Source of the DNA: Arenicola marina
Lineage: Eukaryota > Annelida > Polychaeta > Arenicolidae
Assembly: GCA_964019135.1 (NCBI GenBank)
Contig: OZ025265.1
Span: forward strand, 26,883,143 to 26,947,142
Reading direction: 5' to 3'
Length of the DNA: 64,000 bases
Under the pieces are notes generated by a model. That model was not told where the DNA came from, ran no database searches, and was given only the letters and a program-made list of their open reading frames with translations. A program made the position numbers and the translations under genes. Positions 1-64,000 of this stretch are shown here, piece after piece. Position 1 is the stretch's first letter. Each line of letters opens with the position of its first letter.

Positions 1-730
1 ATACAGAGCGGTTTTGCTGGGGGAAAAAGTCGAACAGGTCTGCCTAGAGCTGTGACACATAGAGCAAGTCAATATAGGATACCCCTTCTGTGCAGATCCT
101 GGAGGTGAAAAGTCCTTCCGAATGGTGCGAAGTCCATCGGGGCACCTTTTGGAGGTAACAAAGCGGGGCTGTAAACACAGCGGTGTATTAAGTACCCCCC
201 AGGACAAATATGACCCTGTCCTATTGGTAAAAAAAGGCACCAGCTGTACTTATTTAGCTTCTTCAAAGCTACATGTAGAAATAATTTTTCGACAAGATTT
301 TAAACAAATAAATATTAAGTGTGGTCTAGCAAGCTATTATGGTAAAGTAAGTTTTACATGGAAAAATGACCAGAAAGTGTCTCATATATCGATGACTATG
401 TTGCTGCTCATAGCGATAAAATGGAAAAACTTTCATGGCCACTCTCCAACTACAATAGTTTTTGATGGATAATGGAGGCAAAATGCATTAAAACAGAGAA
501 CATATTCTTAACCCATTAATGCCCAGGCAGAGACGGCGTCGACAAAGTTTTATTTCTTTGCCATTTATTATCATCAAGAAGGACAGAAAGACATGTTTGC
601 AATCTGAAAGCTGCTTCTTTATTTGAATATGAAAATGTTGGGCGTCATATATATGTAGGACGCTAAGCAGCAGGGTATAAGCAAAATTTACAAATGTAAG
701 TCACTACAGTTTATTTAGGAACTTTTCTTG
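1..730. other. No recognisable gene
   Basis: A 116-codon open frame lies on the plus strand at 122-472, but I recognise no domain, splice context or repeat in it. Nothing else in this stretch could be assigned. Confidence 0.4.
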
Positions 731-2580
731 TAGTTTAGGGCGCGGGCTATGGCTCCGGCGCGGCTTAGGGCTCCGGAAACTGGACTAGTGCCCCAGGCTA
801 TGGGTTATGGCTCCGGTCGCCAGGCTATGGCTCCAGCGCGGCTTAGGGCTCCGGAAACTGGACTAGTGCTCCAGGCTATGGGTTATGGCTCCGGTCGCCA
901 GGCCATGGCTCCGGGAGGCTCTGGGCGCGGGCTATGCTTCCAAGCGCGGGCTATGGCTCCGAGCACGAGCTATGGCTCCGAGCGCGGGCTATGGCTCCAA
1001 GCGCGGGCTATGGCTCCGAGCACGAGCTATGCTTCCAAGCGCGGGCTATGGCTCCGAGCACGAGCTATGGCTCCGAGCACGAGCTATGGCTCCGAGCACG
1101 AGCTATGGCTCCAAGCGCGGGCTATGGCTCCGAGCGCGGGCTATGGCTCCGAGCACGAGCTATGGCTCCGAGCGCGGGCTATGGCTCCGAGCGCGGGCTA
1201 TGGCTCCGAGCACGAGCTATGCTTCCAAGCGCGGGCTATGGCTCCGAGCACGAGCTATGCTTCCAAGCGCGGGCCATGGCTCCGAGCACGAGCTATGGCT
1301 CCAAGCGCGGGCTATGGCTCCTAGCACTCGTGAGCTATGGCTCCGAGCGCAGGCTATGGCTCCGAGCGCGGGCTATGGCTCCAAGCGCGGGCTATGGCTC
1401 CGAGCACGAGCTATGCTTCCAAGCGCGGGCTATGGCTCCGAGCACGAGCTATGGCTCCGAGCACGAGCTATGGCTCCAAGCGCGGGCTATGGCTCCTAGC
1501 ACTCGTGAGCTATGGCTCCGAGCGCGGGCTATGGCTCCGAGCGCGGGCTATGGCTCCGAGCACGAGCTATGGCTCCGAGCGCGGGCTATGGCTCCGAGCG
1601 CGAGCTATGGCTCCGAGCGCGGGCTATGGCTCCGAGCACGAGCTATGCTTCCAAGCGCGGGCTATGGCTCCGAGCACGAGCTATGCTTCCAAGCGCGGGC
1701 CATGGCTCCGAGCACGAGCTATGGCTCCAAGCGCGGGCTATGGCTCCAAGCGCGGGCTATGGCTCCGAGCACGAGCTATGCTTCCAAGCGCGGGCTATGG
1801 CTCCGAGCACGAGCTATGGCTCCGAGCACGAGCTATGGCTCCGAGCACGAGCTATGGCTCCAAGCGCGGGCTATGGCTCCTAGCACTCGTGAGCTATGGC
1901 TCCGAGCGCGGGCTATGGCTCCGAGCGCGGGCTATGGCTCCGAGCGCGGGCTATGGCTCCGAGCACGAGCTATGACTCCGAGCGCGGGCTATGGCTCCGA
2001 GCGCGAGCTATGGCTCCGAGCGCGGGCTATGGCTCCGAGCGCGAGCTATGGCTCCGAGCACGAGCTATATCTCAGAGCGCGGGCTATGGCTCCGAGCACG
2101 AGCTATGGCTCCGATCGCGGGCTATGGCTCCGAGCGCGAGCTATGGCTCCGAGCACGAGCTATATCTCAGAGCGTGGGCTATGGCTCCGAGCACGAGCTA
2201 TATCTCAGAGCGCGGGCTATGGCTCCGAGCACGAGCTATGGCTCCGAGCGCGGGCTATGGCTCCGAGCACGAGCTATGGCTCCGAGCGCGGGCTATGGCT
2301 ACGAGCGCTGGTTATGGCGTTGGATTACGACTCCGGGCGCGGGCTATGGCTAACTGCGCTGGACTATGTCTCCGTGCCCTGGGTTGGCGCTCCAGGCTCC
2401 GGTCGCCAGTCTATGGCTCCAGACTATGGCTCCGGCCTATGGCTCCGGATGCGCGCTATGGCTGCGGGCTATGGCTCCGGACACGAACTAGGGTTTCGTG
2501 CGCTGGACTATTGCTCTAGGCTTCGGTCGCCGGTCTATGGCTCTGGGCTATGGCTCCGAATGCGGGCTAGGACTCCCGAA
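731..2580. repeat. 19-bp GC-rich minisatellite
   Basis: The core unit is GCTATGGCTCCGAGCGCGG, alternating with a variant carrying GAGCACGA in the second half. Roughly 70 or more copies lie between about 910 and 2330. The array opens with a related 78-bp block present twice (about 744-908) and decays into degenerate copies up to about 2580. The unit has no stop codon in any plus-strand frame and 19 is not a multiple of 3, so frames rotate. This explains the overlapping open frames of up to 600 codons, which I do not regard as genes. Confidence 0.95.
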
Positions 2581-2617
2581 GCGGGTGGGTGTGAGATGCA
2601 TGGAGGGTTGCAGCCGG

Positions 2618-3000
2618 GAAGAGAGAGAGGGCGGAAGAGACGGTGGCTTCGAGGGAGGGCGGAAGAGACGGTGGCTTCCAGGGAGGGCGGAACAGACAGT
2701 GGCTTCGAGGGAGGGCGGAAGAGACGGTGGCATTGAGGGAGGGCGGAAGAGACGGTGGCTTTGAGGGAGGGCGGAAGAGACGGTGGCTTCGGGGGAGGGC
2801 GGAAGAGACGGTGGCTTCGAGGGAGGGCGGAAGAGACGGTGGCTTCGAGGGAGGGCGGAAGAGACGGTGGCTTCGAGGGAGGGCGGAAGAGACGGTGGCT
2901 TCCAGGGAGGGCGGAAGAGACGGTGGCTTCGAGGGAGGGCGGAAGAGACGGTGGCATTGAGGGATGGCAGAAGAGACGGTGGCATTGAGGGAGGGAGGGG
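2618..3000. repeat. 28-bp purine-rich minisatellite
   Basis: About 13 tandem copies of a 28-bp unit containing GAGGGAGGGCGGAAGAGACG. It directly follows the 19-bp array. It is strongly purine-rich on the plus strand. Long open frames on both strands are by-products of the repeat. Confidence 0.95.
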
Positions 3001-3087
3001 ACGATTATACCACAGAAAGCCCCCGTGCGCGGGACTATGGCTGCGGATGCGGGTTATGGTTGGTTGGTTATTCAGGACGCTTTAACC

Positions 3088-3300
3088 ACTTTTGGTCATA
3101 TGGCGTTAATGGGAGAAGGAAGGGAGAGTGGAGCCATGTCCCCGGGGGTAACCCCCTACTCTTTACGAAGAAAGACATGGTATCTTTATCCTGCGACCAC
3201 ACAGACATGGCCACAGCAGGGTTCGAACCACCGACCCTAGTGCCGTTAGGCTCTCAGGTGACCAGAGCACTCTAGCCCACTGAGCTGTCGCGCCGGCCCC
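3088..3300 (-). mobile_element. tRNA-derived SINE
   Basis: Read on the minus strand, the head at 3300 has an RNA polymerase III A-box-like stretch (CAGCTCAGTGGGCTAGAG, about 3254-3285). A perfect B box, GGTTCGAACC, lies near 3220-3230, at tRNA-like spacing. The body continues to about 3088. The 19-bp minisatellite motif GATGCGGGTTATGG occurs on both sides, so the SINE sits inside the array. That motif could be the target duplication or simply two array units. No transcription terminator or 3' LINE-like tail was identified. Confidence 0.75.
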
Positions 3301-20525: not shown

Positions 20526-23450
20526 TTTGTAAATATTTTTTTTGTTTTGTTTTTGTTTTGTTATTCCACCATAACAAAGTCACACATCAAAAGAAAGCAT
20601 CATATCACATAAAAGGGTGCCACTTCGATAAAAACAGATGACATTTTTTCACTATCGCTGATGCACTGTTCTATCTTAAAGTAATACAAAATACTGTTCT
20701 GGACCCCCTGAAGATTAGGGATTTCATTAAGCCATTTACATCTATACACATATGTCTTCGTAATTAAACAAGTATGATTAATAAGTCGCTCATGCGATGA
20801 GGGTTCTAACCCTAATAAACAGGATTGACGCGTTGGAGTCAGAGATGTCAAGCATAGGTTATTTAACCAATCAAATAGCCTGAACCATAAAACTCTTTAC
20901 ATAAATACAATCAAAAAGTAAGTGCTGAATAGTTTCAGTCTCAGTCCCACAAAAAGGACATTTCTCTGAGTTTATTATATGACATTTATGCAAAAACTGA
21001 TTTGTGACCAATGCTAAATTCAATAACAGGAACTGAAAGCTTCCGTTTTTTTCTTCAACCGTACAGTGCAATGGTAATTAATAATATTGGCACCAATTAG
21101 CTTCCTCTATATCAATTTCTACATACTGACACCACCGTTCTTCGTCTTTTTTACTATAGCTTAAAGACTTGACCAGTAACTTTTAACTATAATTGCATAA
21201 ACGCGCCGTTCTTGTTATTAAATTCGCCCACTTGCCAGTTACGTTACCCAGTGTTTTACCTGATGTCATTATTTGGTGTTTCCAGTCTCGCGGTATGCAG
21301 CGCACAAAACTATAGAAATCAACAAAGTTACTATTTATTTGATATTTCTTTCCGAATTCTTCCCATCCTAACAGGACGCCATGTTCATCAACTATACCAT
21401 TAATAAAAACAATCCCCTTTGTGATCATTTCGTCTCTTTTGCTATTCAGATATGAAATTTTCATAAAAGAGAACTCATTTAGAGAAATGGCATCTAAGTC
21501 CCAACATAATATTTTATCACTACAAATAGTTTTACAAAACGATTGCTGCCACGCTCCATCATTTAGTACGAGTCTTCGTATCCAACTAATTTTGAGCGCG
21601 AACATCATAGAGTCTATGTGAGGGAGGCTAATGCCCCCAAAATCGACTGATTGTACCATTTTAGACATGGCAATTATAGGTTTCTTTTTATTCCACACGA
21701 ATTCCCGAATTAGACGATTAATTCTGTTTAGATAATATTTACCAGGTATAGGCAGAACAGACAAAACGTGTATTAGTTTAGGCAGAGCGATAACCTTTAC
21801 TACAGTAATTCTACCTCTTAAGGAAAAATTTCTCTTGCCATACATAACGACTACACCTTCAAATTAACATTAAACATCATACCGAGTAAAGTAAACTCCT
21901 CAGACCAGGTAAGATTTAGATCGGGACATAGGGTTTGGCGATCTTTAGCAATTCAAACAGGAACAAAATGGGAACACTTCCAGAACCCGTAACGCTTTTC
22001 TAATTGACTCTTTGCTTCCGTCTAGCAGCAAAAAAGTGTCATCTGCGTGTTGTCCTATTTTAAACTCTTGGTCCAAGATTCGTATACCCTTGATAGATTT
22101 GTCATTTAAACGTAGCCAGTGGTTCAATAGACAAAATAAATAAATACGGTGACAGTGGATCACCCTGTCTACAGCCGCGCCCCAATGGAAAAAACTGGGA
22201 GAAAACACCATTGTTTATAACACAACTGCAGGCTTCATTATAAAGAATTCTAATCCAATTAATGAAAAGATATACCGAAACCATACGTATCTAAAAGCTT
22301 ATGTATATAATTCCAGCTTAACGTATCAAACGCCTTTTCGAAATCTATAAGTAACAAAGTTCCCGTTTTCTCATTTTGAATCAGGTAATGCATAATATCA
22401 AAAACTAACCTCGTATTTTCTCCAATGTACCGGTCTTTCCTTTCTGGTCTGAAATGATAACATCCGGCAACACTTTCTTCATTATATACGCTAGGACCCC
22501 AGACAAATTTTTTATAATATGTATTCAACAGAGAAATCGGGCGGCAGTTTTTCATGAATTCTCTAGGCTTATCACCCTTTGGCAGGCAGGTTATTACGCC
22601 TTGCTTCTGTGTTATCGAGAGACCTTTTACTTTTAGCGCATGTTGGATGCTCTTTAACAAATACGGGCTTAATTCCTTCCAGAAAAACTGGTAAAATTCA
22701 ATTGAAACACCGTCACTACCAGGGGACTTGCTGTTTTTCATGTTCTTAACTACCATTCTGCCATTTCCCACATTTCAATTTCACCTTCACATGTCTCTCT
22801 CTGCTCTATACTAAGTTTCTTAATTTTTGAGTTCAGGAACGCCGTCATGTAGTACGTCGCGTCTGGGTGGTCATTATTCTTATACAAAGATTCGTAGTAC
22901 TTCCGTTGTTCGCAGAGTATTTTTTTCTGGTCCACCACTTCTTTCCCATCAACATTCAATCTATGTATAAGCTTACTTAAATAGTTGCTTTTCTCTAGAT
23001 TACAGAAATATTGACTTGGCTTTTTCCCTTGCTCGTAATACTGTGCTTTTGATCTAATAAAAACTCCTTTCATTCTCGGGATCCTAAGTTGCTCTAGTTC
23101 CGTCTTTAACTCGTCTAATCTGTTTTCAAGCTCTCCACTTTTTTCTTTAGACTCTTCTATCTTGTTTATACGTTGCTCGATTTTACGTTCCTGTGTCCTG
23201 GTAGCTTTACTCTTGTAACTGCTGTAACTTATAGATTTTCCCCTTATTTCTAGCATAAGCATCTCAAAAAACAATTGATCATCTATAGCCAGTGACGGTG
23301 CCCCCCCCCCCCCACCCCCGCTCCCCAGGATTGCTAGTGTACCTCTCCAAAACTCGCGCGATACAATCTTGAACAAGGTCCCGATATTCTGCATTCCTTA
23401 ATAAAGACGTATTCATTTTCCAAACACCTTGTAGCCCGATTTTATGTTTA
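20526..23450 (-). mobile_element. L1/Tx1-like LINE, 5'-truncated
   Basis: A minus-strand non-LTR retrotransposon. The 3' end at about 20526-20565 has an A-rich tail of the form AAAACAAAAACAAAAC. Upstream come the ORF2 C-terminus, a CCHC zinc knuckle, the thumb, the reverse transcriptase palm and the linker. At 23400-23450 a short piece resembles the last part of the endonuclease (GVWKMNTSLLRN in one frame). Most of the endonuclease and all of ORF1 are missing, as in ordinary 5'-truncated insertions. A poly-G run of about a dozen bases interrupts the linker near 23300. No target duplication was established. Confidence 0.9.
20600..23394 (-). pseudogene. LINE ORF2: reverse transcriptase relic
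   Basis: The parts in order are as follows. The linker (22780-23290) includes QYYEQGKKPSQYFCNLEKSN. The RT start has KSPGSDG near 22729. The palm motif A is LLIDFEKAFDT near 22345. The template-grip motif is GCRQGDPLSPYLF (about 22160-22205). The catalytic motif C reads HADD in place of the usual YADD or FADD (about 22040-22049). The thumb occupies 21183-21845. A CX2CX8HX4C knuckle lies near 20907-20960. The C-terminal tail with YVYRCKWLNEIPNL is at 20600-20851. At least five separate frames are needed to follow this order, so it is inactive. The zinc knuckle and tail favour the L1/Tx1 group. Confidence 0.9.
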
Positions 23451-38369: not shown

Positions 38370-40025
38370 GGGCCCCTTTGACGTCACCACGGGTCTGTCA
38401 GATGGTTACAACTGGTCAACACTTGCCCACCACGGGTCTGTCAGATGGGTTACAACTGGTCAATGGGCAGGACGGGACACTTGCCCAACACGGGTCTGTC
38501 AGATGGTTGACAACTGGTCAATGGGCAGGACGGAACACTTGCCCACCACGGGTCTGTCAGATGGGTTACAACTGGTCAATGGACAGGACGGGACACTTGC
38601 CCATCACGGGTCTGTCAGATGGTTGACAACTGGTCAATGGGCAGGACGGGACACTTGCCCACCACGGGTCTGTCAGATGGGTTGCAACTGGTCAATGGGA
38701 AGGACGGGACACTTGCCCACCACGGGTCTGTCAGATGGGTTACAACTGGTCAATGGGTAGGACGGGACACTTGCCCACCAAGGGTCTGTCAGATGGGTTA
38801 CAACTGGTCAATGGGTAGGACGGGACACTTGCCCACCACGGGTCTGTCAGATGGGTTACAACTGGTCAGTGGGCAGGACGGGACACTTGCCCACCACGGG
38901 TCTGTCAGATGGGTTACAACTGGTCATTGGGAAGGACGGGACTCTTGCCCACCACGGGTCTGTCAGATGGGTTACAACTGGTCAATGGGTAGGACGGGAC
39001 ACTTGCCCACCACGGGTCTGTCAGATGGGTTACAACTGGTCAATGGGTAGGACGGGACACTTGCCCACCACGGGTCTGTCAGATGGTTACAACTGGTCAA
39101 TGGGTAGGACGGGACACTTGCCCACCACGGGCCTGTCAGATGGGTTACAACTGGTCAATGGGAAGGACGGGACACTTGCCCACCACGGGTCTGTCAGATG
39201 GGTTACAACTGGTCAATGGGTAGGACGGGACACTTGCCCACCAAGGGTCTGTCAGATGGGTTACAACTGGTCAATGGGTAGGACGGGACACTTGCCCACC
39301 ACGGGTCTGTCAGATGGGTTACAACTGTTCAATGGGCAGGACGGGACACTTGCCCACCACAGGTCTGTCAGATGGGCTACAACTGGTCATTGGGAAGGAC
39401 GGGACTCTTGCCCACCACGGGTCTGTCAGATGGGTTACAACTGGTCAATGGGTAGGACGGGACACTTGCCCACCACGGGTCTGTCAGATGGGTTACAACT
39501 GGTCAATGGGTAGGACGGGACACTTGCCCACCACGGGTCTGTCAGATGGTTACAACTGGTCAATGGGTAGGACGGGACACTTGCCCGCCACGGGTCTGTC
39601 AGATGGGTTACAACTGGTCAATGGGAAGGACGGGACACTTGCCCACCACGGGTCTGTCAGATGGGTTACAACTGGCCAATGGGTAGGACGGGACACTTGC
39701 CCACCACGGGTCTGTCAGATGGGTTACAACTGGTCAATGGGCAGGACGGGACACTTGCCCACCAAGGGTCTGTCAGATGGGCTACAACTGGTCATTGGGA
39801 AGGACGGGACTCTTGCCCACCACGGGTCCGTCAGATGGGTTACAACTGGTCAATGGGTAGGACGGGACACTTGCCCACCACGGGTCTGTCAGATGGGTTA
39901 CAACTGGTCAATGGGTAGGACGGGACACTTGCCCACCACGGGTCTGTCAGATGGGTTACAACTGGTCAATGGGTAGGACGGGACACTTGCCCACCACGGG
40001 TCTGTCAGATGGGTACAACTGGTTA
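38370..40025. repeat. 58-bp minisatellite with ~463-bp higher-order repeat
   Basis: About 28 copies of a 58-bp unit containing CACGGGTCTGTCAGATGGGT and GGGCAGGACGGGACACTTGC or its GGGTAGG variant. A few units lack one G. Diagnostic variants such as GGGACTCTTGCCC recur at about 38939 and 39402, and blocks starting at 38851 and 39314 repeat over 463 bp (eight units). The array has therefore grown by duplicating multi-unit blocks. Open frames of up to 220 codons follow from the repeat. Confidence 0.95.
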
Positions 40026-49785: not shown

Positions 49786-50548
49786 CCAGGAAGACAATCA
49801 GGTCTGGTTGCAGTCATTGGTCAGAGAGAGAGAGGGGTTCTCTGTCCGGATTTCCGATGCTGTCTGGTTGCAGTCATTGGTCAGAGAGAGAGAGGGATTC
49901 TTTGGCCGGATCTCCGATGCTGCCTGGTTGCAGTCATTGGTCAGAGAGAGAGAAAAGGATTCTCTGGCCGGATTTCCGGTGCTGTCTGGTTGCAGTCATT
50001 GATCAGAGAGAGAGATGGATTCTCTGTCCGGATCTCCGATGCTGCCTGGTTGCCGCCACTGGTCAGAGAGCAGAGAAGGGGATACTCTGTCCGGATCTCT
50101 GATGCTGCCTGGTTGCAGTCATTGGTCAGAGAGAGAGAAGTATTCTCTGGCCGGATCTCCGGTGCTGTCTGGTTGCAGTCATTGATCAGAGATAGAGATG
50201 GATTCTCTGTCCGGATCTCCGATGCTGCCTGGTTGCCGCCACTGGTCAGAGAGCAGAGAAGGGGATACTCTGTCCGGATCTCTGATGCTGCCTGGTTGCA
50301 GTCATTGGTCAGAGAGAGAGAAGTATTCTCTGGCCGGATCTCCGGTGCTGTCTGGTTGCATTCATTGATCAGAGAGAGAGATGGATTCTCTGTCCGGATC
50401 TCCGATGCTGCCTGGTTGCCGCCACTGGTCAGAGAGCAGAGAAGGGGATACTCTGTCCGGATCTCTGATGCTGCCTGGTTGCCGCCACTGGTCAGAGAGC
50501 AGAGAAGGGGATACTCTGTCCGGATCTCTGATGCTGCCTGGTTGCTCC
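49786..50548. repeat. ~61-bp minisatellite with 183-bp higher-order repeat
   Basis: About 12 units with CTGGTTGCAGTCATTGGTCA and CTCTGTCCGGATCTCCGATG. Three-unit blocks repeat at 183 bp (block starts near 50050, 50233 and 50416), marked by the variant TTGCCGCCACTGGTCAGAGA. 183 is divisible by 3, which accounts for a 261-codon frame that I do not consider a gene. Confidence 0.93.
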
Positions 50549-51194
50549 AGTGACTTGTTCACACAAGTGTGTTTTCGCTGGGCCGTGCAGTCGTGCTTCT
50601 AACCCTCCCCACCCCCATACTCCCACCTCTCACCTAATATGCTTTGAGTAGTAGGGAGAGTGAGTCCAGAGACATCAAGCTCACACACCCATAAATTAGT
50701 ATGTAAATAGGTATATTCAACAAGGTTATTAATCATTGTGTGTCTTATGTTCTCGTGCTATAGTACGAGTGAATGAAGAAGACATATTGTTTGAAGTCTT
50801 CAATCTGCGATCAAGTACTATTATGAATAGGCAATAAATGAACAAGTCCTTTTGCTTTGATGAAACAGTAAATCATTTAATCGCTATAGATATCGCCATG
50901 TAAACTGTATATTCTCGCGTTACAGTACGATTAATCGTCAATGACACGTGTATATAATCAATGTAATCAGGCCATGTGAGATCCTATAAGCTGTGTAATA
51001 TGTTTGTTTGTTTGTAAAAACCTAGGATATGTATCGAGTAAACCATATTAACGCAAATACAATCATCCATTTTGCAATTTTTTTATTCCTATATCACTAC
51101 ATGAATACCATTACCCGCTACAACATCTATCGTGGTCAAAAACTTAGTATCACAAAAATATACACCTTCATATCATATTATTATACATGACAAT
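50549..51194. other. AT-rich flank of the virus-like region
   Basis: No gene recognised. It lies 3' of the protease fragment. No terminal repeat or target duplication of a Polinton-type element could be identified here. Confidence 0.4.
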
Positions 51195-51533
51195 TTAGAC
51201 AATGGGTAAAGAGGTCTTGCACGCGATTTGCATAAAACGCGGGGACTGCCGGCGAGTGATACGCGGAAAGTGAACAGATTGGAAATTATGAATATAGTTG
51301 TCATTGCACATGGTGTGTGGAGACCAATACTCTCGATAGATTCGTGACATGGAGTAATTTCGACATTTGAAATATAAGTAAAATAGACAGTATTCTCCGC
51401 ATACATCTGTGCCAAGTGACTGCCACACCGCTCTCATGGGTTGTTGAATAAAATATTCCAAGTGTTTAAGGTTCACATAGGCACGAATTGGTTTTCCTAG
51501 TGAGTCAAACATCTCAATTTTCCCCGATGACAC
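51195..51533 (-). pseudogene. Adenain-type cysteine protease fragment (Maverick/Polinton family)
   Basis: The frame contains FDSLGKPI, then DVCGEYCLFYLYFKC and a following YSM. These fit the substrate-groove aspartate region and the active-site cysteine helix of the adenovirus/Polinton maturation protease (peptidase family C5). In that family the enzyme processes capsid proteins. It lies on the same strand as the PC4-like gene at 51679-52383, downstream of it. I treat it as a fossil part of a Polinton-type element, partial as seen here. Identity rests on motifs recognised by eye. Confidence 0.65.
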
Positions 51534-51678
51534 TAAACTTTAAATGTCACACGTACGTATACTAATCACCAATTATATATATATATATATATTCATCTAC
51601 ACCAGTGTAACTTTCACCATAATTCAGGATTGGTCATCCATAAATACATCAAATGTAACTTAGTGGATACATAAACAT

Positions 51679-52383
51679 TTAGGATAGATGCATCTTATCC
51701 AAACCTTTCGGGTAACATTCAACACAGTCAAAGTACCCCTCCTGATTTTGGTGAGATGACATACAATCAACCAACTCGGTGAGTTCCGGAACACACTTAT
51801 CATGGATCGTGTTGAGATGGAATATAAGTAAATTCCACTGCTTTAAATCGAGAGTAATTCCTTTTCGGGTCGGCACGGGCGTATCTTGTGTATCCGGCAA
51901 CCAGTATTTTCGAATATCTAGAAACTGGCCACGGTGCAGGACCTCGGCCATCACCAAACCTCCGAGATGATATTTCCGTGGATTGGTGGTCTGTTGCAAT
52001 TCTCGATCTATGGTGTTTGTCAATGTCTGCAACATCTTCCAGCGGGTTGTGATGAGATTGACACCCACTTTTGTAGGGTAATCACGGCCGTTTTCTTGAC
52101 ATACCCACTTTCTAATATCAAAGCGTAAAACGTCTTTGAAATACTGAACAGTTAAATAGACATTCTCTCCGATGCACTCTTGATAGCGTATATCGTGAGT
52201 TTGCTCGGAAGTACACTGCGTATTCTCCCACTTTCTTTTCTTGGCCAGCGGGATGAGTGGTAGCCGATTGGAGGGAGCGAAGCCCGCTGTTGTCTTGTGG
52301 GAAGTCATGTCGTTGTGGTGAAAAGATGGAGACCGCCCGTACATTATATTCACAAAGTCCCTCTCCACCTCCTCGTCATCCAC
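51679..52383 (-). CDS. Protein with two tandem PC4/SUB1-like domains, 234 aa
   Basis: Both halves match the C-terminal domain of the transcriptional coactivator PC4/SUB1, a single-stranded-DNA-binding fold. Domain 1 is at about residues 68-128 (VLRFDIRKWV, then a W at 115). Domain 2 is at about 138-202 (FLDIRKYWLPD, RKGITLDLKQWNLL). Domain 2 closely follows the human pattern IDIREYW...RKGISL..EQW. A basic KKRK near 48-51 may be a nuclear signal, and the N-terminus is acidic. PC4 normally dimerises, so two domains in one chain could form an intramolecular dimer (inference). The frame looks whole. Its same-strand neighbour is a Polinton-type protease fragment, which suggests it belongs to a virus-like element, though a host gene cannot be excluded. 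Confidence 0.75.
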   Translation of the reverse strand: MDDEEVERDFVNIMYGRSPSFHHNDMTSHKTTAGFAPSNRLPLIPLAKKRKWENTQCTSEQTHDIRYQECIGENVYLTVQYFKDVLRFDIRKWVCQENGRDYPTKVGVNLITTRWKMLQTLTNTIDRELQQTTNPRKYHLGGLVMAEVLHRGQFLDIRKYWLPDTQDTPVPTRKGITLDLKQWNLLIFHLNTIHDKCVPELTELVDCMSSHQNQEGYFDCVECYPKGLDKMHLS

Positions 52384-53029
52384 CCACTTGGGACGTGTCT
52401 GAACATGCTTTGGCGAGGTGTAAAAATAGCATCACGACTGACGTCATACATCAGCGAGGCTTTGTCATCTGTTTAAAGATAGAGAGAGAGGGGTGTGACC
52501 AACGGGCTTTGTACGCACGGGTAATCGCTGTAAATGAGCGATCAATCATTTGATCCCAACAACTCAAGCCCGCGTTATAATAAGACTGAGTCGCTTCACT
52601 ACGTTTTCTAATAATTGGTTCATGCACTACTGTGTGTGAATTGTGTGATTGATGTTAAAGGTCACAGAAAAGAGCCGTGGATGTTTTAAAACTCATCAAA
52701 ATGCTACCTTTGTGAAAGAGCGGTGACTTTAATGTCTTGTCTGCGAGCGACAGATGTTTCGTGGTCTTTGTCTTGATGTGTAGATTTGCAGCGACAATTA
52801 TTTATTTTCGGTCGGTTATTTTTTTTTTAAATGCGCGTTTGAATTCACCGGTGGGAGGGCAGTGAGTCGAGCCGTCCAGCGCGCTGGACGGTGGGGGCGG
52901 GGCTTCGTCCGAGACAAATATCGATTTTTTTTTTCCAAGCCCCTCAGCACCCGCTGGCCGTCACGACCTACTGACTTTCAAAAGTTCGGGCGAGCCAGCG
53001 AGCCACAGTCAGTGGAGCGTCATGTGGTT
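52384..53029. other. Region between the PC4-like gene and the giant inverted repeat
   Basis: No gene recognised. The segment 52490-52612 is similar, in inverted orientation, to 59530-59642 beside the integrase fossil: GACTGAGTCGCTTC and CTGTAAATGAGC-type blocks are shared. It may hold the promoter of the leftward PC4-like gene. Whether it is part of the large inverted repeat cannot be seen, because the window ends before its partner. Confidence 0.5.
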
Positions 53030-54672
53030 TTTGGCGGGGTATTGGCCGACGGTCTGTGTACGCACAAGTTTGGGAGTGTCGCTGTGATATATTGTGAAAT
53101 ATCGGAAGGAATAATCACCTTAATTTTAGTTTCGGTTGTAACATTATTCAACTGTCGCCGATGTAATAAGGATGCATCTATAAACGTTCGAACAAACAAG
53201 TCGTGGAGACAAGCGCCCGGTTGGCGTCCTTTTGTCGCGAGGGAGAAGAGTTATGACAGTTGTTTGATGAGTCAGTCTATTATTTCGATAGTAATAAGCG
53301 GGCTTTATGCTCTTCACCTCAGGTATTATTTATCTGCAAGCCATTAGTACGTCGGCCGGAAAGGTCAATGGGTTAACCTCTTTAACAACCACCCGTGGGT
53401 ATTTCATTATACCTTCCCCTCCTAGATAACTAGGCGTGGCAGCTGGTTACTATGTGGTGGCAGTAAAATTCACTGTTGTATATGTTACGAGGCGTCATTG
53501 TGTACTGATGGAAACATAAGAAGCTTGTGTTATAGGTCCACCCTTCCCCCTGCCCCCCCCCTTTCTCTCCCCCATCTATTCACTGACGATTCTGAACACG
53601 TGACTCCCATGCTACACCTGCCCTCTTCGTCAACGATGCAGTTTTAAAATCATAATGGAGTGAATGGTGACGTCATTGACATTTAGTCATCTGTTTGTTC
53701 AGGACCTATATAAAACGGGAGAGATGAGTTAATTAGTTGTTTCTTTATGTTGGCAACCCCTTGACCTCTGTAGCCGACGTTCTGTTTGCTTGCATATGCA
53801 TCCAAAAGAAGGTAGGGAGGGTGAAGGATATAACATCAATCGCCTATGTCATTGCTATACACGTTCTTGGGGAGTGTCTGTGGGTTTTTTATTGCATTGG
53901 AGTTACCAATGTTACGAGCACCCCACATCCGACGGCACGTTTAAACGAGTTTGGGGAAAGAGCGACTGGCTCCCTCCATACACCATACACTCACAATATT
54001 CCTATTAGGTTATTTTGCTGTTACTCCGTCAAGTGAAAACTATTATGGTGTATGACCGCTTTTCTAGTTCATTAAAAGAAGCAGTTGCATTTGCTTGTGA
54101 CATCTGCAACCAACGTCGCATTCATATAACTCATACACCGTTAAAGGAATTAATCTGTAAGTTTGAACATTGTTACTCGTTAAGTCAGTGTAAAGTAACA
54201 TATATGTTAAAAATGTATTGTATTGAACTTTATTTGTTTTTATTGCACTTTTAAAAGCCGCTAAAGTAAAAACACATACTAACATAAATTTTACCAACAA
54301 TAACCGTATCCATCCATGTCAAGGAACGTAGTCAACAATTAACTTTAGCGTAATTTAAATAACTCACAAATTTCATATGTCACCACGTCACAACTCATTC
54401 GTAGGTTTCAACAAGACTTTAAACCATCTGCAAAAGTGATTATAAAAGTGAATGCATCAACTTTAAAAATGATATTTTACGTATTGTATGTATGAAGTAT
54501 TCGTTTTCCGTCACGTGTTTATATATTTTTTAAACTATCAAGTGTTACAGTAACACAATAAGTTATGCATGTATCATATATTTGTGAAACATCCATTTAC
54601 CTTATTGCAATACGTCTCGGTTTACACATACACTTACAACTATGCAACTAGTCTTGTAGAATGTCATGTTTC

Positions 54673-54740
54673 ATAAAGTTAACAAGTTATTGAATCAACA
54701 GATTGACGCGTGTTACGCGTGCGTGTATCGCGAATGTGAA
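54673..54740. repeat. 68-bp motif repeated within the arm, copy 1
   Basis: ATAAAGTTAACAAGTTATTG followed by CAACAGATTGACGCGTGTTA and a CGCGAA-containing end. A second copy sits 1,270 bp further at 55943-56010, and both are mirrored in the right arm (about 62292-62360 and 61020-61088). It has the GC-rich palindromic core ACGCGT in an otherwise AT-rich arm, so a protein-binding or replication-related site is possible. Confidence 0.85.
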
Positions 54741-55942
54741 CTGAATTAAAAGTCGTCATCACGTTAACGAATTAGGAAGTGAGTATAAGCACTGCCATGT
54801 AATTTTTAGTGAGTAGCATTTGCGGTAAAAGAACTTCGCTATTGAAATAGCGTTAGCAACAGGCAAGTACTAATTCTACACAATCATGACAAGTTCTTAA
54901 ATTTTATTTAGTGAACATTGCAATTCCGAAAACAACGATATTTGTGGTGACAACATATCTGCAATGAAGTAAGAGAGAAGTAATTAGACATAAAAAATAG
55001 CGAAGCCAACGTGATGTATGTGCGAATTTAATGAATTGAATTCACCGGTATAATCAGATACATTCTAAACTACGGTGCGTAGAGAAGTATTGAATAGACT
55101 CATGACTGAGAAGAGTTTATCAAATGAATAACATTTGGAACATAACACAACATATGGATAATATAAACCTAATACTGTTGATTACAATAAAACTCACGCG
55201 AGTATTCTGAGAGAACATGTTGTAAACGGAATAAATCATCAGTTTGTAACCATACAAAGAGATGAATGAAACATATCATTTACTTTATCTCGTAACATAC
55301 ATTCTAAACTTAGAAAGAGGATCGTATTAAGTAGTTGTCATAGCAAACACTAACATAAATATAACGAATGAGTTATCTGTCTTTTTTGGTATATCTTGGT
55401 GCAATGTATGACGTATCTAACTCGTGTTTTCTCTCTGCGTAGAAGGTATGTCAAAACTGGGAGTATGTATCCTCTTTTTTTTTTTTTATACATCAAGAAG
55501 TTAAACAGATAGAATAGAATTCTCTTGAGTTGTGATGTCAAGGACAATGAATCAGTATTCAGTTTGGTTTTATTACACATTTCCCAAAACAGTTTTCTTA
55601 CTCTTACTCAACCAGATTATGTAGGAATGTATGGTAATGTAATTTTTAGAACCCTTAACTTCCTACATGAATTGATACTTCTAGTATCTAATTAATCTTA
55701 CCTTAAGCTACCCTGAAAGAAATTTCAGGGTCCACTCGTCTCCTGCGAGAATGTAACAATATGTTTAGTTGATTTATAACATTTAGGTTTTATCTACATG
55801 AAACGAATGCTTATTTTTTTTATTTTTAAACTATTAACATTTGTACTGAGTTTTACTCATTTTACTTACCACTCTCTTTCCTCTGGCGCACAGTAAACCG
55901 TTATACACTTACACCTATGACTAGTTACAAATGGAAGTATTA

Positions 55943-56010
55943 ATAAAGTTAACAAGTTATTGAATCAACAGATTGACGCGTGTTACGCATGTGTATATCG
56001 CGAACATGAA
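55943..56010. repeat. 68-bp motif repeated within the arm, copy 2
   Basis: Identical to copy 1 through ATTGACGCGTGTTACGC, then differs at several positions. It is preceded, as in copy 1, by a related CTAGT...CACTTACA-type block. Confidence 0.85.
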
Positions 56011-57683
56011 ACGTTTGATCCGCAAGTGCCATCACGTATGATATGTTAACTGGTTTGGTGGACACATGTAAAACCAAAAGGTAGAATTCTGTCAGTTACA
56101 TGCCGTCATCGAGTTTGTTACATTCGTGTAATTTGAAAGACAACGAAGAAGAAAGATGTCACTTTTTGTATTCAACATAACATCAAGTTTATACTTAATG
56201 TAACATGTGTGAAATAAATATCATGTCACATCTATGTACTCAATAGTCAACCGCAAAAGTAAAAAGCTGTAAGTATTGTGTGTGTGTGTATTCACTGTAA
56301 CATATGTCTGTGGATAGTAATCATTTGCATACGATTTTACTTATTGTAGATGACACAACGATGAATAACGTGTTCATGCTAGATATATAAAAACATACAC
56401 CCCCGTTGAACGAACGGTGTACGAGAAAATTAAATGACTTGTAAATAATATAGATGTGATCCGTACTACACATGTGTCACAATTGACATGATCGTTTGAT
56501 AGAACAAATATCGGTCTTGTCTTTTTCAAGTGAAGTAAATCGGGTTTGCAGACTGTTAAGAAAGTAACCGAGTGCGTAATACAATATATATATTTAATGA
56601 AGTAATATGTTTGGGAAAAGAGTCGTTATATAGTTTCGCTGTATGTTAACATACTTGAACACAAGAAAACGGTAACAAAAGTTAATGAATGATTGAATGG
56701 GAATATTTTCTTTGATATGTTTTGGATGAATTAGTTAACATTAATGCTACTGACTAACGACAACAACCACGGGAACCACCATAACCATAATATCGCCAAC
56801 TGTTTGAGTCAAAGGACAATGTGTGCATGTGAAAACTTGTTTTATAAATGTAATGGTAATACCAAAGATCTCTATACATCTTCTATTCTCTAACCACACA
56901 ACTCTCTACCCCTCACCTCTTAACATAACGTATTTTCCAAAAATGGAAACCGCATATATGTCCCCTGCATCCTCTCTGAGATGGCTACATCACTGATTAT
57001 TCAGACGTAATTCCTGTGATCATAGCGTTTCATTTCACATTTGTCTCAACACAGTTTATAACAGGGCCAGCTATAGCCCGTTATTCTCTTAATCGTTGGT
57101 AAACTTCCAGCGCAATCTTAATTTACACTACTAACTTTGCAAAAAAATAATAATAAATAAACGTAAGCTTTCTTGCATTAAATACAGAAATTTATAGTAT
57201 ACATAAGTACTCTTGACGGTTGTCTATTGAGTCTCCTAATGCGGCATAAAATAGAAACTTGATGCTATATGAAATGCTAAACATGTAAAATGCTACCTAT
57301 ATGTTTCACAATTTTCTAGTGAGCTACAAACATGTTGCACATAACTTGTACTTTATGCCATTTGAAACATAAACTTTACATAATAATTTCATAGTCGTTT
57401 CACTATTGTCTAAGTATTGCCCCGAACGGTACATAGAACATAAACTTGATTGCTTATGAAGCATCAAATACACAAACTTATATAATAATGCTATATTTTT
57501 AATCATTGTGTTATTCTAGTTATGCGAATGCTGCACAAAATTCATAATGCAATGAAACATAAACTAATTTTGTCCTATTATCATTGCAGTATGTTACACA
57601 TAACTGTTTCTAAACCTTAACCACCATAGCACTAGCACGCACAGAGGTAACAACACCTCATTCCTCCCTACTCTGATATCATT

Positions 57684-57860
57684 TATAAAAATAGAGAAGG
57701 CAAGCATCTAAACTCCGAAAGGGGAAGCCCCTCAACGCTCCACCCACCCTGCTTTAGCCAACCATTGACGTCATTGCTAAAAATAGTGCATACGCGCCCC
57801 CACGCCCCCTCCATCAACCACCCTCTCCTCATCGCCTCAACACTAAAAATAGAGCATGCG
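57684..57860. repeat. Loose tandem repeat with TAAAAATAG motifs
   Basis: TTATAAAAATAGAGAAGGCA, GCTAAAAATAGTGCATACGC and ACTAAAAATAGAGCATGCGT occur at spacings of roughly 65-90 bp within C-rich sequence. The last two match the MEF2 site consensus, but repetition could also just reflect an old duplication. Regulatory meaning is speculative. Confidence 0.4.
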
Positions 57861-58969
57861 TGCATAACCACTCCACCCTTCCCCAAGCGTCTCTCACCAC
57901 CTGTTTTTTTACCCAAAGTGTAAAGGTAGTCATGGAAAATTAATTCTCTCTAGCCAACTCAATGTAGGGAGCGGAACAAACCAGTGATGGGGATCTCACT
58001 CTTTTCGGCTGTCTTTGGTAGAAATGTTCCGTCAGTAAATTATACTGACTGATACTGATCACACAGCACCCTCACTGTGTGCAAAAACTTCGGTTACCCC
58101 GGCGTTCGCACTATGGTAGTCTAATAACGGCCCGCGTGCTTTGTAAAAGGGGATCGAGGATAAACTAACGGGTACATAAATCTTCGACAAAACCACCAAT
58201 GTACCCTGATTAAACACTCAAAACTGTCGAAACGCCACTACATCGTAATCTTTAGACTAACTATCGGAGTAATCTCAACAGGACATCCAACGTACGTTAT
58301 GTCTGACAAAACTATTAGTTATAAGTAAACAAGCCTATCACTTTCTGTTGAAGCCTTACATTTAAAAATAACAACTACACAGAGAAAAAACTATAAACAC
58401 CAGAACTCATGTTCTCAATCGAAAACAGGGAACTGAATTCAATATTGTCTTTACATTACTGCTCACCCCCATCTCGAAATCCGATGAACAGCCAGCTGGA
58501 GTGAACTGCGCACACACCCATTATATCCATCCGCCTACCCTCACCTTCAAGCCAAGAGACAAGGCTCAACACGCTCAGTGGTGACTAGTACTGGCTTTTC
58601 CTGGCGACACGCTTCGGTGACTCCACCGGTCTGGGTAGCCTCTCAAATTAATGCATTGGTGTCCTTGGGGTGCGGGCGTGGGGGAGGCGGGTGGGCGGTT
58701 AGAGTACGTCCCTCACTCATAGGTTGTGGTAAGGAGCGGCGACATGCTAAATAGGGGCGCGACTCGATGAACTCGGTGAATGCGGCAACCATGTAGGAAA
58801 AACGGTCGGACTAGGAGGGAGGGGGGAAAAGAGGCTGAGGGAGGGCGACTAATTTTACAAGCTAACTGCTGTCTTGGCAGTTACCTGCCGATGACACAGC
58901 TTAACGTCACTACATGATTGTGAATACCGATCACCGTCTTGGTTAGGTGAGGGTAGAAGGGAATCGACT

Positions 58970-59130
58970 ATTTCAATACTAATAAGTGCCTGTATGCTCT
59001 TCTCCTCAGGTAGTTTTTCATCTGCAAGCAATTAATACGTCGACCAGAAAGGTGAATGGGTTGACCTCTACAACATAAGCAACCAGCTGTCAGGTATTAA
59101 TTGTCTTCTCTAACCGCTCCTCCGTGGCAG
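58970..59130. repeat. Diverged copy of left-arm sequence
   Basis: TACTAATAAGTGC, ATGCTCTTCTCCTCAGGTA, TCTGCAAGCAATTA and GGTGAATGGGTTGACCTCT align with 53277-53450 in the same orientation, with many substitutions. An older relative of the arm sequence is therefore embedded next to the integrase fossil. Confidence 0.7.
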
Positions 59131-59159
59131 ATCTTCAAAAGCTGCCGCTACATCTGTTC

Positions 59160-59355
59160 CTTTTTTTGGATGGGAGAGCTCGTGTATAAGCGTATCTAGA
59201 CAAGATATCAATGGCTACTAGAATATAGATGTACTTGTCGTTACTCTCCTTGTATTTTACCATATCCACCAAATCCGCATCCCATTGGTAGCCTAAGCGC
59301 CCCACCACCACTTGTCGTTCATGAGATGATTTTCTGATGGGTCGGTGAAGAGTAG
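59160..59355 (-). pseudogene. Polinton/Maverick-type integrase fossil
   Basis: The minus-strand reading contains RLGYQWDADLVDM, then a segment with KYIYILVAIDILSRYAY. This is the typical start of the retroviral-like (DDE) integrase core of Maverick/Polinton elements, including the first catalytic aspartate within ADLVDM. Only this fragment was recognised. The element is broken. Divergence from the intact-looking sequences nearby suggests it is older than the inverted-repeat arms. Confidence 0.75.
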
Positions 59356-60333
59356 AAAAAACCTAATGCCAAATGTTCATTTGCAATGCAGACAACTGTA
59401 TTACTCTATTTCATAGTTCACCGCACGTTGATCCATAACTTACAGATAATTGCAGCCATCTGGTCATCATCTCTACAGCTGCTCGAGCTTGTATTGCACT
59501 GTATTGCATGAATCCGCGAACAAGTTATTATAAAACGCAGCGAAGCGACTCAGTCGCATTATAACACGAGCTTGAGGGTTGTCGGGGTTAATAGAGTAAT
59601 TGGTCGCAGGCTCATTTACAGTGATTATCTCCACCTACGGGGCAGATGACGGAAGGGGGGGGGGGTGAAGATATAGTGAGTATGTGGGAAGGGGAGGGGG
59701 TGAGAGGGCAGGTGGTTCGCGATGGACGTGATAGGGGGCGTGGAGTAGGCGTGAGATGCGGTGACCTTGGCGTCACCGAAGCCTAACGGGGGGGCCGCCT
59801 ACATCCCAACTCAAATTTACGGTTGCCGCCCGTCCACGACCGTCCACTGACACCTTTCAGGCGTTTCGATAGAGGGTGTTAGCCGCCGGGGAATGAATTT
59901 ACAGTTTAACCGAGAAATCACCCAGGTTCAACAGACACACTAAATAAATATCACTAAACATGATTTCAGAATTTGTGTAGATCCATACGGTGCGATCCGC
60001 CCAACGATACTTTTCGCACTCATCAGATTATAATTTACAATACCTTTTAGATGTTGAATCACTATAGTTTGTTAAATATACTTTACATCACCTGTTTAGC
60101 AAGGTTCTACATATAGATTACTACAACACCATCAATAGTGAGTTATTGGATTGTTCATTTGATGTTTAACTTCACAGAAATCAACAAACATTATACATAA
60201 ATGTTAATATTTTACTACAACTAGATCTATCATCATTACATAAAACAGACCTAGTACGTAATGTGAGCGATAACTGAAAACACAACACATTGTATGTTTG
60301 TCTTTAAACTAAACAGTCACGTAGCTGTTGACG

Positions 60334-63300
60334 CATTCAATCATTCATTAACTTTTGTTACCGTTTTCTTGTGTACAAGTATGTTAACATACAGCGAAAC
60401 TATATAACGACTCTTTTCCCAAAAATATTACTTCATTAAATATATATATTGTATTACGCACTCGGTTACTTTCTTAACAGTCTGCAAACCCGATTTACTT
60501 CACTTGAAAAAGACAAGACCGATATTTGTTCTAACAAACGATCATGTCAATTGTGACACATGTGTAGTACGGATCACATCTATATTATTTACAAGTCATT
60601 TAATTTTCTCGTACACCGTTCGTTCAACGGGGGTGTATGTTTTTATATATCTAGCATGAACACGTTATTCATCGTTGTGTCATCTACAATAAGTAAAATC
60701 GTATGCAAATGATTACTATCCACAGACATATGTTACAGTGAATACACACACACACAATACTTACAGCTTTTTACTTTTGCGGTTGACTATTGAGTACATA
60801 GATGTGACATGATATTTATTTCACACATGTTACATTAAGTATAAACTTGATGTTATGTTGAATACAAAAAGTGACATCTTTCTTCTTCGTTGTCTTTCAA
60901 ATTACACGAATGTAACAAACTCGATGACGGCATGTAACTGACAGAATTCTACCTTTTGGTTTTACATGTGTCCACCAAACCAGTTAACATATCATACGTG
61001 ATGGCACTTGCGGATCAAACGTTTCATGTTCGCGATATACACATGCGTAACACGCGTCAATCTGTTGATTCAATAACTTGTTAACTTTATTAATACTTCC
61101 ATTTGTAACTAGTCATAGGTGTAAGTGTATAACGGTTTACTGTGCGCCAGAGGAAAGAGAGTGGTAAGTAAAATGAGTTAAACTCAGTACAAATGTTAAT
61201 AGTTTAAAAATAAAAAAATAAGCATTCGTTTCATGTAGATAAAACCTAAATGTTATAAATCAACTAAACATATTGTTACATTCTCGCAGGAGACGAGTGG
61301 ACCCTGAAATTTCTTTCAGGGTAGCTTAAGGTAAGATTAATTAGATACTAGAAGTATCAATTCATGTAGGAAGTTAAGGGTTCTAAAAATTACATTACCA
61401 TACATTCCTACATAATCTGGTTGAGTAAGAGTAAGAAAACTGTTTTGGGAAATGTGTAATAAAACCAAACTGAATACTGATTCATTGTCCTTGACATCAC
61501 AACTCAAGAGAATTCTATTCTATCTGTTTAACTTCTTGATGTATAAAAAAAAAAAAAAGAGGATACATACTCCCAGTTTTGACATACCTTCTACGCAGAG
61601 AGAAAACACGAGTTAGATACGTCATACATTGCACCAAGATATACCAAAAAAGACAGATAACTCATTCGTTATATTTATGTTAGTGTTTGCTATGACAACT
61701 ACTTAATACGATCCTCTTTCTAAGTTTAGAATGTATGTTACGAGATAAAGTAAATGATATGTTTCATTCATCTCTTTGTATGGTTACAAACTGATGATTT
61801 ATTCCGTTTACAACATGTTCTCTCAGAATACTCGCGTGAGTTTTATTGTAATCAACAGTATTAGGTTTATATTATCCATATGTTGTGTTATGTTCCAAAT
61901 GTTATTCATTTGATAAACTCTTCTCAGTCATGAGTCTATTCAATACTTCTCTACGCACCGTAGTTTAGAATGTATCTGATTATACCGGTGAATTCAATTC
62001 ATTAAATTCGCACATACATCACGTTGGCTTCGCTATTTTTTATGTCTAATTACTTCTCTCTTACTTCATTGCAGATATGTTGTCACCACAAATATCGTTG
62101 TTTTCGGAATTGCAATGTTCACTAAATAAAATTTAAGAACTTGTCATGATTGTGTAGAATTAGTACTTGCCTGTTGCTAACGCTATTTCAATAGCGAAGT
62201 TCTTTTACCGCAAATGCTACTCACTAAAAATTACATGGCAGTGTTTATACTCACTTCCTAATTCGTTAACGTGATGACGACTTTTAATTCAGTTCACATT
62301 CGCGATACACGCACGCGTAACACGCGTCAATCTGTTGATTCAATAACTTGTTAACTTTATGAAACATGACATTCTACAAGACTAGTTGCATAGTTGTAAG
62401 TGTATGTGTAAACCGAGACGTATTGCAATAAGGTAAATGGATGTTTCACAAATATATGATACATGCATAACTTATTGTGTTACTGTAACACTTGATAGTT
62501 TAAAAAATATATAAACACGTGACGGAAAACGAATACTTCATACATACAATACGTAAAATATCATTTTTAAAGTTGATGCATTCACTTTTATAATCACTTT
62601 TGCAGATGGTTTAAAGTCTTGTTGAAACCTACGAATGAGTTGTGACGTGGTGACATATGAAATTTGTGAGTTATTTAAATTACGCTAAAGTTAATTGTTG
62701 ACTACGTTCCTTGACATGGATGGATACGGTTATTGTTGGTAAAATTTATGTTAGTATGTGTTTTTACTTTAGCGGCTTTTAAAAGTGCAATAAAAACAAA
62801 TAAAGTTCAATACAATACATTTTTAACATATATGTTACTTTACACTGACTTAACGAGTAACAATGTTCAAACTTACAGATTAATTCCTTTAACGGTGTAT
62901 GAGTTATATGAATGCGACGTTGGTTGCAGATGTCACAAGCAAATGCAACTGCTTCTTTTAATGAACTAGAAAAGCGGTCATACACCATAATAGTTTTCAC
63001 TTGACGGAGTAACAGCAAAATAACCTAATAGGAATATTGTGAGTGTATGGTGTATGGAGGGAGCCAGTCGCTCTTTCCCCAAACTCGTTTAAACGTGCCG
63101 TCGGATGTGGGGTGCTCGTAACATTGGTAACTCCAATGCAATAAAAAACCCACAGACACTCCCCAAGAACGTGTATAGCAATGACATAGGCGATTGATGT
63201 TATACCCTTCACCCTCCCTACCTTCTTTTGGATGCATATGCAAGCAAACAGAACGTCGGCTACAGAGGTCAAGGGGTTGCCAACATAAAGAAACAACTAA

Positions 63301-64000
63301 TTAACTCATCTCTCCCGTTTTATATAGGTCCTGAACAAACAGATGACTAAATGTCAATGACGTCACCATTCACTCCATTATGATTTTAAAACTGCATCGT
63401 TGACGAAGAGGGCAGGTGTAGCATGGGAGTCACGTGTTCAGAATCGTCAGTGAATAGATGGGGGAGAGAAAGGGGGGCAGGGGGAAGGGTGGACCTATAA
63501 CACAAGCTTCTTATGTTTCCATCAGTACACAATGACGCCTCGTATCATATACAACAGTGAATTTTACTGCCACCACATAGTAATCAGCTGCCACGCCTAG
63601 TTATCTAGGAGGGGAAGGTATAATGAAATGCCCACAGGCGGTTGTTGAAGAGGTTAACCCATTGACCTTTCCGGCCGACGTATTAATGGCTTGCAGATAA
63701 ATAATACCTGAGGTGAAGAGCATAAAGCCCGCTTATTACTATCGAAATAATAGACTGACTCATCAAACAACTGTCATAACTCTTCTCCCTCGCGACAAAA
63801 GGACGCCAACCGGGCGCTTGTCTCCACGACTTGTTTGTTCGAACGTTTATAGATGCATCCTTATTACATCGGCGACAGTTGAATAATGTTACAACCGAAA
63901 CTAAAATTAAGGTGATTATTCCTTCCGATAGTTAACAATATATCACAGCGACACTTCCAAACTTGTGCGTACACAGACCGTCGGCCAATACCCCGCCAAA
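60334..64000. repeat. Giant inverted repeat, right arm (runs off the window)
   Basis: Reverse complement of 53030-56699. The same small frames appear mirrored on the minus strand. Whether the protease and PC4-like region is also mirrored beyond 64000 cannot be seen. Confidence 0.95.

Follow-up and report, generated by a model that had tools for sequence, protein, structure and literature searches.

The window analysed here, a stretch of 64,000 nucleotides from the annelid Arenicola marina (contig OZ025265.1 of GCA_964019135.1), harbors on its minus strand a frame of 234 amino acids (51679–52383) that matches the PC4 profile PF02229 in two stretches (E = 2.5e-15, 56.1 bits, Pfam cut-off 25). 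The stretches correspond to residues 71–119 (domain 1, 52027–52173, minus strand) and 154–187 (domain 2, 51823–51924, minus strand), and when the frame was split, residues 1–136 and 137–234 scored 29.4 and 29.5 bits, respectively, each above the cut-off of 25, which bears out the two tandem PC4 domains of the original prediction. The frame is opened by a GTG at 52383, inside a stop-to-stop frame of 250 amino acids, and this GTG is unlikely to be the true start; in-frame ATG codons at 52344 and 52308 would give proteins of 221 and 209 amino acids. The ATG at 52308 was taken as the likely start because it aligns with a methionine of a divergent lineage of the gene (lineage B), giving a probable coding region of 209 amino acids at 51679–52308 (minus strand) with a TAA stop. 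The nearest solved structures by sequence were those of human PC4 (1pcf, 6ycs and 4usg) and of a phage T5 protein (4bg7, E = 0.032), with 1pcf retrieved by domain 2 (E = 6.5e-4) and 4usg by domain 1 (E = 0.004). A PHROG family annotated as transcriptional regulator also matched the protein (2.7e-9), while the PHROG search with six other element proteins yielded nothing useful.

The single-stranded DNA (ssDNA) contacts of human PC4 are Arg70, Phe77, Arg86, Trp89, Arg100 and Lys101, and the replacement of Phe77 or Trp89 by alanine abolishes ssDNA binding (PMC4350104). At the places of Phe77, Arg86, Trp89, Arg100 and Lys101, as read from alignments, domain 1 exhibits F82, R91, V94 (with W93 adjoining), K105 and V106, and domain 2 exhibits L149 (alignment extended by eye), R158, W161, R173 and K174; lineage B has a tyrosine at the Phe77 place. 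As to the two stacking aromatics, domain 1 keeps the equivalent of Phe77 and domain 2 that of Trp89, and this retention of one aromatic contact per half suggests that the two halves would form an asymmetric intramolecular dimer. Since one stacking aromatic is missing from each domain, the binding of ssDNA may also be weak. The AlphaFold single-sequence model of the protein reached a pLDDT of 32.9 and was unusable.

The gene lies in a palindromic, non-autonomous Polinton derivative with (AGT)2 ends, which begins at 50647 with AGTAGTAGGG, occupies the window from there to 64000 and continues into the segment L009, where it closes with the inverse of AGTAGTAGGG at L009:3123, giving a total of about 16.5 kb from coordinates. 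The 6-bp target-site duplication GCTTTG flanks both sides (50641–50646, and L009:3124–3129 outside the window). The left arm (50647–56699, plus strand) and the right arm (60334–64000 in the window, minus strand, continuing into L009) mirror each other at 98–100% in the aligned pieces around a spacer of 3.6 kb (56700–60333), and the right arm contains a duplication of about 0.6 kb. PC4 is present in both arms and faces outward, the second copy being at L009:643–1344. Within the spacer lies a 223-bp fragment of the Polinton integrase gene (59131–59353, minus strand; 99% identical to L018), which was recovered again as C20:26942280–26942501 in the genome search for integrases, and the spacer at 56883–58966 resembles the interior of an element on contig C7 at about 85%. 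Among the frames of at least 70 amino acids in this copy, no polymerase or integrase frame was observed, so the copy looks non-autonomous; PC4 is the only element gene recognised in it, with the Pfam scan covering the PC4 frame and the adjacent protease fragment. The window copy is a defective left-end Polinton palindrome carrying PC4 twice, and it would rely on the enzymes of complete elements to move.

The frame beside PC4 on the same strand (51195–51533, minus), described earlier as a fragment of an adenain-type protease, proved to be a terminal-repeat copy of the 3′ end of a protease frame only. It had no Pfam match at E < 1 and shows almost the same sequence as the 3′ portion of the fuller protease frame of a complete element, which itself matches PF00770 (adenovirus protease, Peptidase_C5) weakly (E = 0.0049, 17 bits, cut-off 21.3). 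The fragment displays the motifs FDSLG, VWQSLG and VCGEYC and lacks the GRHW of the fuller frame; these motifs have catalytic roles in the protease, and GRHW is its histidine motif. The 3′ end of the protease frame sits in the right terminal repeat of complete elements, with a copy in the left repeat, and the arm part corresponding to this repeat (50647–51532), matched to the right-end repeat of L018, ends at 51532, where the protease fragment begins. The fragment is a by-product of the terminal repeat and no gene of its own.

The organization of complete elements was observed on contig C10, where two elements of about 16.5 and 15.5 kb (from coordinates) are nested: the right repeat of the first has received the second in reverse orientation, with 6-bp duplications AACATA (outer) and CACGTG (inner). 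An inverted dimer, considered as a source of the double gene set, was ruled out by this nested arrangement. The elements contain, in a run of one direction, a C2H2-PolB gene and ATPase-like, integrase (rve plus chromodomain), capsid-like and adenain-like protease frames, with PC4 in the opposite direction just inside the left terminal repeat and divergent from the polymerase gene. The PolB of the complete element at L019 matches PF03175 (27.5 bits, cut-off 25.8), and the integrase at L018 matches PF00665 (rve, 1.6e-12) and Chromo (3.2e-7), over the Pfam cut-off; the ATPase-like frame reaches 21.3 bits with ATPase_2, below the cut-off of 33.2, and the capsid-like frame, which found no match in Pfam, is a presumed capsid gene by its place in the gene order. 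Each element has a PC4 frame within its own 6-bp duplication: the first has the full tandem frame and a polymerase broken into several frames, and the second has a frame cut to 167 amino acids by a deletion that removes domain 2. The duplications were found for the window, C12, C6, outer C10 and inner C10 elements, and the element ends read AGTAGTAGGG or AGTAGTATAG, carrying the (AGT)2 motif; 6-bp target duplications and (AGT)2 ends have been reported for Mavericks (PMC8097293). For a further element on C1, the left end was found and the right end was not. The capsid-like frame was also considered for conserved readthrough of a TGA, which was rejected, as in the three stop-bearing copies examined (L030, L040 and L043) the stop is the usual end of the frame and the query overran it. 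Two PolB versions, about 45–65% identical in the compared pieces, were also observed at L017 and L019 on C10 in elements otherwise near-identical, as if the polymerase had been exchanged between them.

The association of PC4 with these elements was assessed across the genome itself, where the PC4 search gave 150 scored matches, all over the cut-off and one of them a host-like exon, and the integrase search gave 113. The linkage set comprised the 69 integrase matches with at least 293 aligned residues, the 44 shorter matches being left out, and 42 of these 69 near-full-length integrases have an outward-facing PC4 frame upstream, in opposite orientation, at the expected place. The search accounted for 39 links (38 at 8.5–10.9 kb and one at 15.3 kb) and direct inspection of the sequence for three, two partial and one frameshifted, so that at least three of the 42 linked frames are partial or frameshifted, and stops or truncations affect several of the other frames as well, some of the 39 being so damaged. 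An inverted capsid-like frame takes the place of PC4 in 9/69, and neither was found by these searches in 18/69; six of these 18 were probed, three showing PC4 remnants or deleted frames and three nothing. At least 172 PC4 loci, the host-like locus not counted, resulted from combining 150 matches of one search with 40 of the 150 matches of another, chosen by eye as additional to the first set, and merging them within 700 bp, and by simple arithmetic with 172 loci in 867 Mb only about 0.1 linkages are expected by chance. Recurrent linkage to Polinton genes, named earlier as a form of support, was found for integrases within its own genome, at a set distance and orientation. Likewise, homologues are not confined to intron-bearing host genes, as the tandem frames run uninterrupted across the two domains and are parts of mobile elements; a host gene only was rejected on this ground, the one host-like match being a single-domain exon. 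The tandem frame is almost certainly a real gene of these Polintons and belongs to the accessory genes of a Polinton/Maverick lineage. The host-like exon, resembling SUB1, lies at about position 4175 of L026 (contig C8), with long simple-repeat frames downstream. The mitochondrial contig of this genome translates best under code 5, and its order nad3-S-nad2-cox1-N-cox2-D-atp8-Y-G-cox3, with genes named by eye, is one of annelids; an echinoderm host was rejected on these grounds.

Differential evolution patterns were observed for the two domains. Lineage B was found at nine sites with at least 85% identity, and the integrase matches include one at the usual distance for eight of these. Lineages A and B have almost the same domain 2 (dS 0.10) but a distinct domain 1, with pS of 0.92–0.97 and pN of 0.30–0.31 in the three distinct B copies (Fisher p from 4.6e-16 to 4.3e-13). 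These substitution patterns indicate that the PC4 protein has been under long constraint in replicating elements, as seen in domain 1, and, on the aligned sequences, that the halves of PC4 have recombined between the lineages; L048 looks like an A/B mosaic. For 19 lineage-A frames, pN/pS is 0.85 over the whole frame, with 1.08 for domain 1 and 0.59 for domain 2, values in which multi-hit codons are counted crudely and both arms of some elements are included. Recent insertions are drifting, which is normal for mobile elements, and taken alone they lend no support to constraint. A PC4 variant with another N-terminus (a 204-aa frame) is present on C7 at L014:3943–4554 and L016:7833–8444, as an outward-facing pair 23.7 kb apart whose interior is about 85% like the window spacer.

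Palindromes of the window type are abundant in the genome, with 40 outward-facing PC4 pairs among the at least 172 loci, and 27 of these pairs are spaced 11.4–13.3 kb and form a dominant size class. One may suppose that such pairs are assembly artefacts or adjacent insertions rather than real elements, and at least one of the other 13 pairs, the 29-kb pair on C10, did prove to be a nested insertion; yet exact and mutually different 6-bp duplications flank both ends of the window, C12 and C6 palindromes, and palindrome arms differ by 3–13 sites, not zero, which makes this explanation highly improbable. With up to 3 mismatches allowed, only the right end was located at C8 and neither end at C19 or C7; no duplication was found for these three. 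In the five palindromes with both inner arms compared (window, C12, C8, C19 and C6; a sixth, C7, was left out as it had no comparable segment), arms differ at 3–13 sites (0.1–0.5%) within an element and at 26–48 sites (1.0–1.7%) between elements, so that arms are closer within than between elements in 5/5. Either the arms were freshly copied at insertion or conversion keeps them alike. A small number of founders may have given rise to many of the palindromes: at least 12 short integrase pieces from the same region occur in the genome, several of them between PC4 pairs. The spacers in C12 (L010:8687–9821), and also in L012 and L023/L024, carry a proline-rich, internally repeated frame of 229–245 amino acids and a Cys-containing frame of 117 amino acids; the two C12 frames had no match in Pfam. 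Outward-facing pairs of capsid-like frames about 11–16 kb apart were also observed, such as C7:40288057/40300101; C4:15662018/15673797; C13:40694309/40706269; and C12:27320061/27331061, and these could represent right-end palindromes or, like the C10 pair, nested insertions.

The elements share with Polintons/Mavericks, as far as described in PMC8097293, the 6-bp duplication, (AGT)2 ends, polymerase B, rve integrase, ATPase-like and adenain-like protease frames and accessory regions at the ends, whereas the tandem PC4 in an accessory region, the abundant left-end palindromic derivatives and the single direction of all recognisable core genes distinguish them from the Polintons described there. 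The Polinton gene list in that source contains no ssDNA-binding protein, and its main text holds neither 'single-strand' nor 'ssDNA'. With cellular PC4/SUB1 (PF02229; PMC4350104) the protein shares a PC4 domain over the cut-off and, as read from the alignments, apparently most ssDNA-contact positions, but the cellular protein has one dimerising domain, whereas here two domains lie on each chain and the contact residues are split between the halves. PC4-type proteins are named in PMC4350104 for phage T5 (4bg7) and Lactococcus; the T5 protein likewise is a PC4 domain in a viral genome, although as a chain of 102 residues that is not tandem and from a different kind of virus. IMG/VR scans, run with the PC4 protein and its alignment as well as with the integrase, ATPase and capsid-like proteins, confirmed no relative, and none was found in the phage records searched. 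No paper joining PC4 with Polinton or adintovirus was found among the open-access papers searched, and PC4 terms were absent among the matches listed for wider queries, in keeping with the earlier statement that no standard Polinton gene set with a tandem PC4 was known.

In adenovirus, protein-primed replication by strand displacement exposes single strands, and the DNA-binding protein coats the displaced strand; fold-back copying of the linear, strand-displacing replicon yields palindromic molecules, and symmetric left-end palindromes are known beside the E2A DNA-binding protein. The present elements resemble this system in the left-end palindromic derivatives of a linear, presumably protein-primed replicon and in the presumed need for an ssDNA-binding protein, and differ in that their palindromes sit in a genome between target duplications and have multiplied there and that the protein is of another family. 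The Polinton polymerase is described as protein-primed (PMC8097293). By analogy, the two PC4 domains would fold as a covalent pseudo-dimer that binds ssDNA and, while protein-primed replication proceeds by strand displacement, covers the displaced strand. Such palindromes would be products of fold-back copying in a linear replicon that replicates by strand displacement, the arms of the window copy probably having been made or evened out in this way. From knowledge of the family, a role as replication ssDNA-binding protein is the favoured candidate, with about even chances of being right. The reading as a whole, of an accessory Polinton gene with this role and of palindromes arising by fold-back copying, draws on the tandem domains over the cut-off, the linkage to 42/69 integrases, the PC4 frame of each nested C10 element within its own duplication, the (AGT)2 ends and 6-bp duplications, the polymerase B and integrase matches over the cut-off, the domain 1 constraint between lineages A and B, the contact residues that each domain appears to keep and the likeness of arms within elements in 5/5 palindromes, against which stand the pLDDT of 32.9 of the only model, the lack of one stacking aromatic in each domain, the replacement or absence of PC4 in 9/69 and 18/69, the recent lineage-A pN/pS of 0.85, the lack of a relative in IMG/VR or phage records and the main known role of cellular PC4, which is that of a transcription cofactor.

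On the same family knowledge, the protein could instead be a transcription factor of the element, acting like PC4/SUB1 on promoters such as those of late genes, a serious but clearly less probable possibility. Cellular PC4 is a transcription cofactor according to PMC4350104, the PHROG match (2.7e-9) is to a transcriptional-regulator family, and the PC4 gene is divergent from the polymerase gene, which makes a shared promoter region plausible; yet ssDNA binding and DNA unwinding are also activities of this fold, and the data show no tie to promoters. It appears improbable that PC4 serves the palindromes as satellites competing with complete Polintons, or as a brake useful to the host: the 27/40 outward pairs at 11.4–13.3 kb and its standing as the sole element gene recognised in the window copy would fit, but PC4 occupies the same place in integrase-bearing elements, so hitch-hiking explains its presence in left-end derivatives. 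A passenger without function for the element would account for the little constraint in recent copies and for integrase elements without PC4; the strong domain 1 constraint between A and B and the one place kept in 42/69 leave this equally improbable. Returning to the replication role, its fuller form, in which the tandem PC4 serves this Polinton lineage as its replicative ssDNA-binding protein and is an asymmetric covalent pseudo-dimer, with the Phe contact in one half and the Trp contact in the other, and in which the palindromes are integrated, self-evening defective genomes recording extrachromosomal strand-displacement replication with fold-back copying, is put forward tentatively and would be somewhat unlikely to hold in every part. 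The tandem PC4 gene beside the polymerase represents a concrete, testable candidate for a Polinton ssDNA-binding protein, and the left-end palindromes, flanked by target duplications and with arms matched within the element, represent genomic evidence on the copying mode of such elements.

Other repeats were also observed in the window. Immediately to the left of the element is a minisatellite with units of 60/183 bp (49802–50545), long minisatellites at about 700–3100 and 38500–40000 produce long open frames, and frames at 21183–23397 (minus strand) resemble, by eye, remnants of LINE reverse transcriptases.
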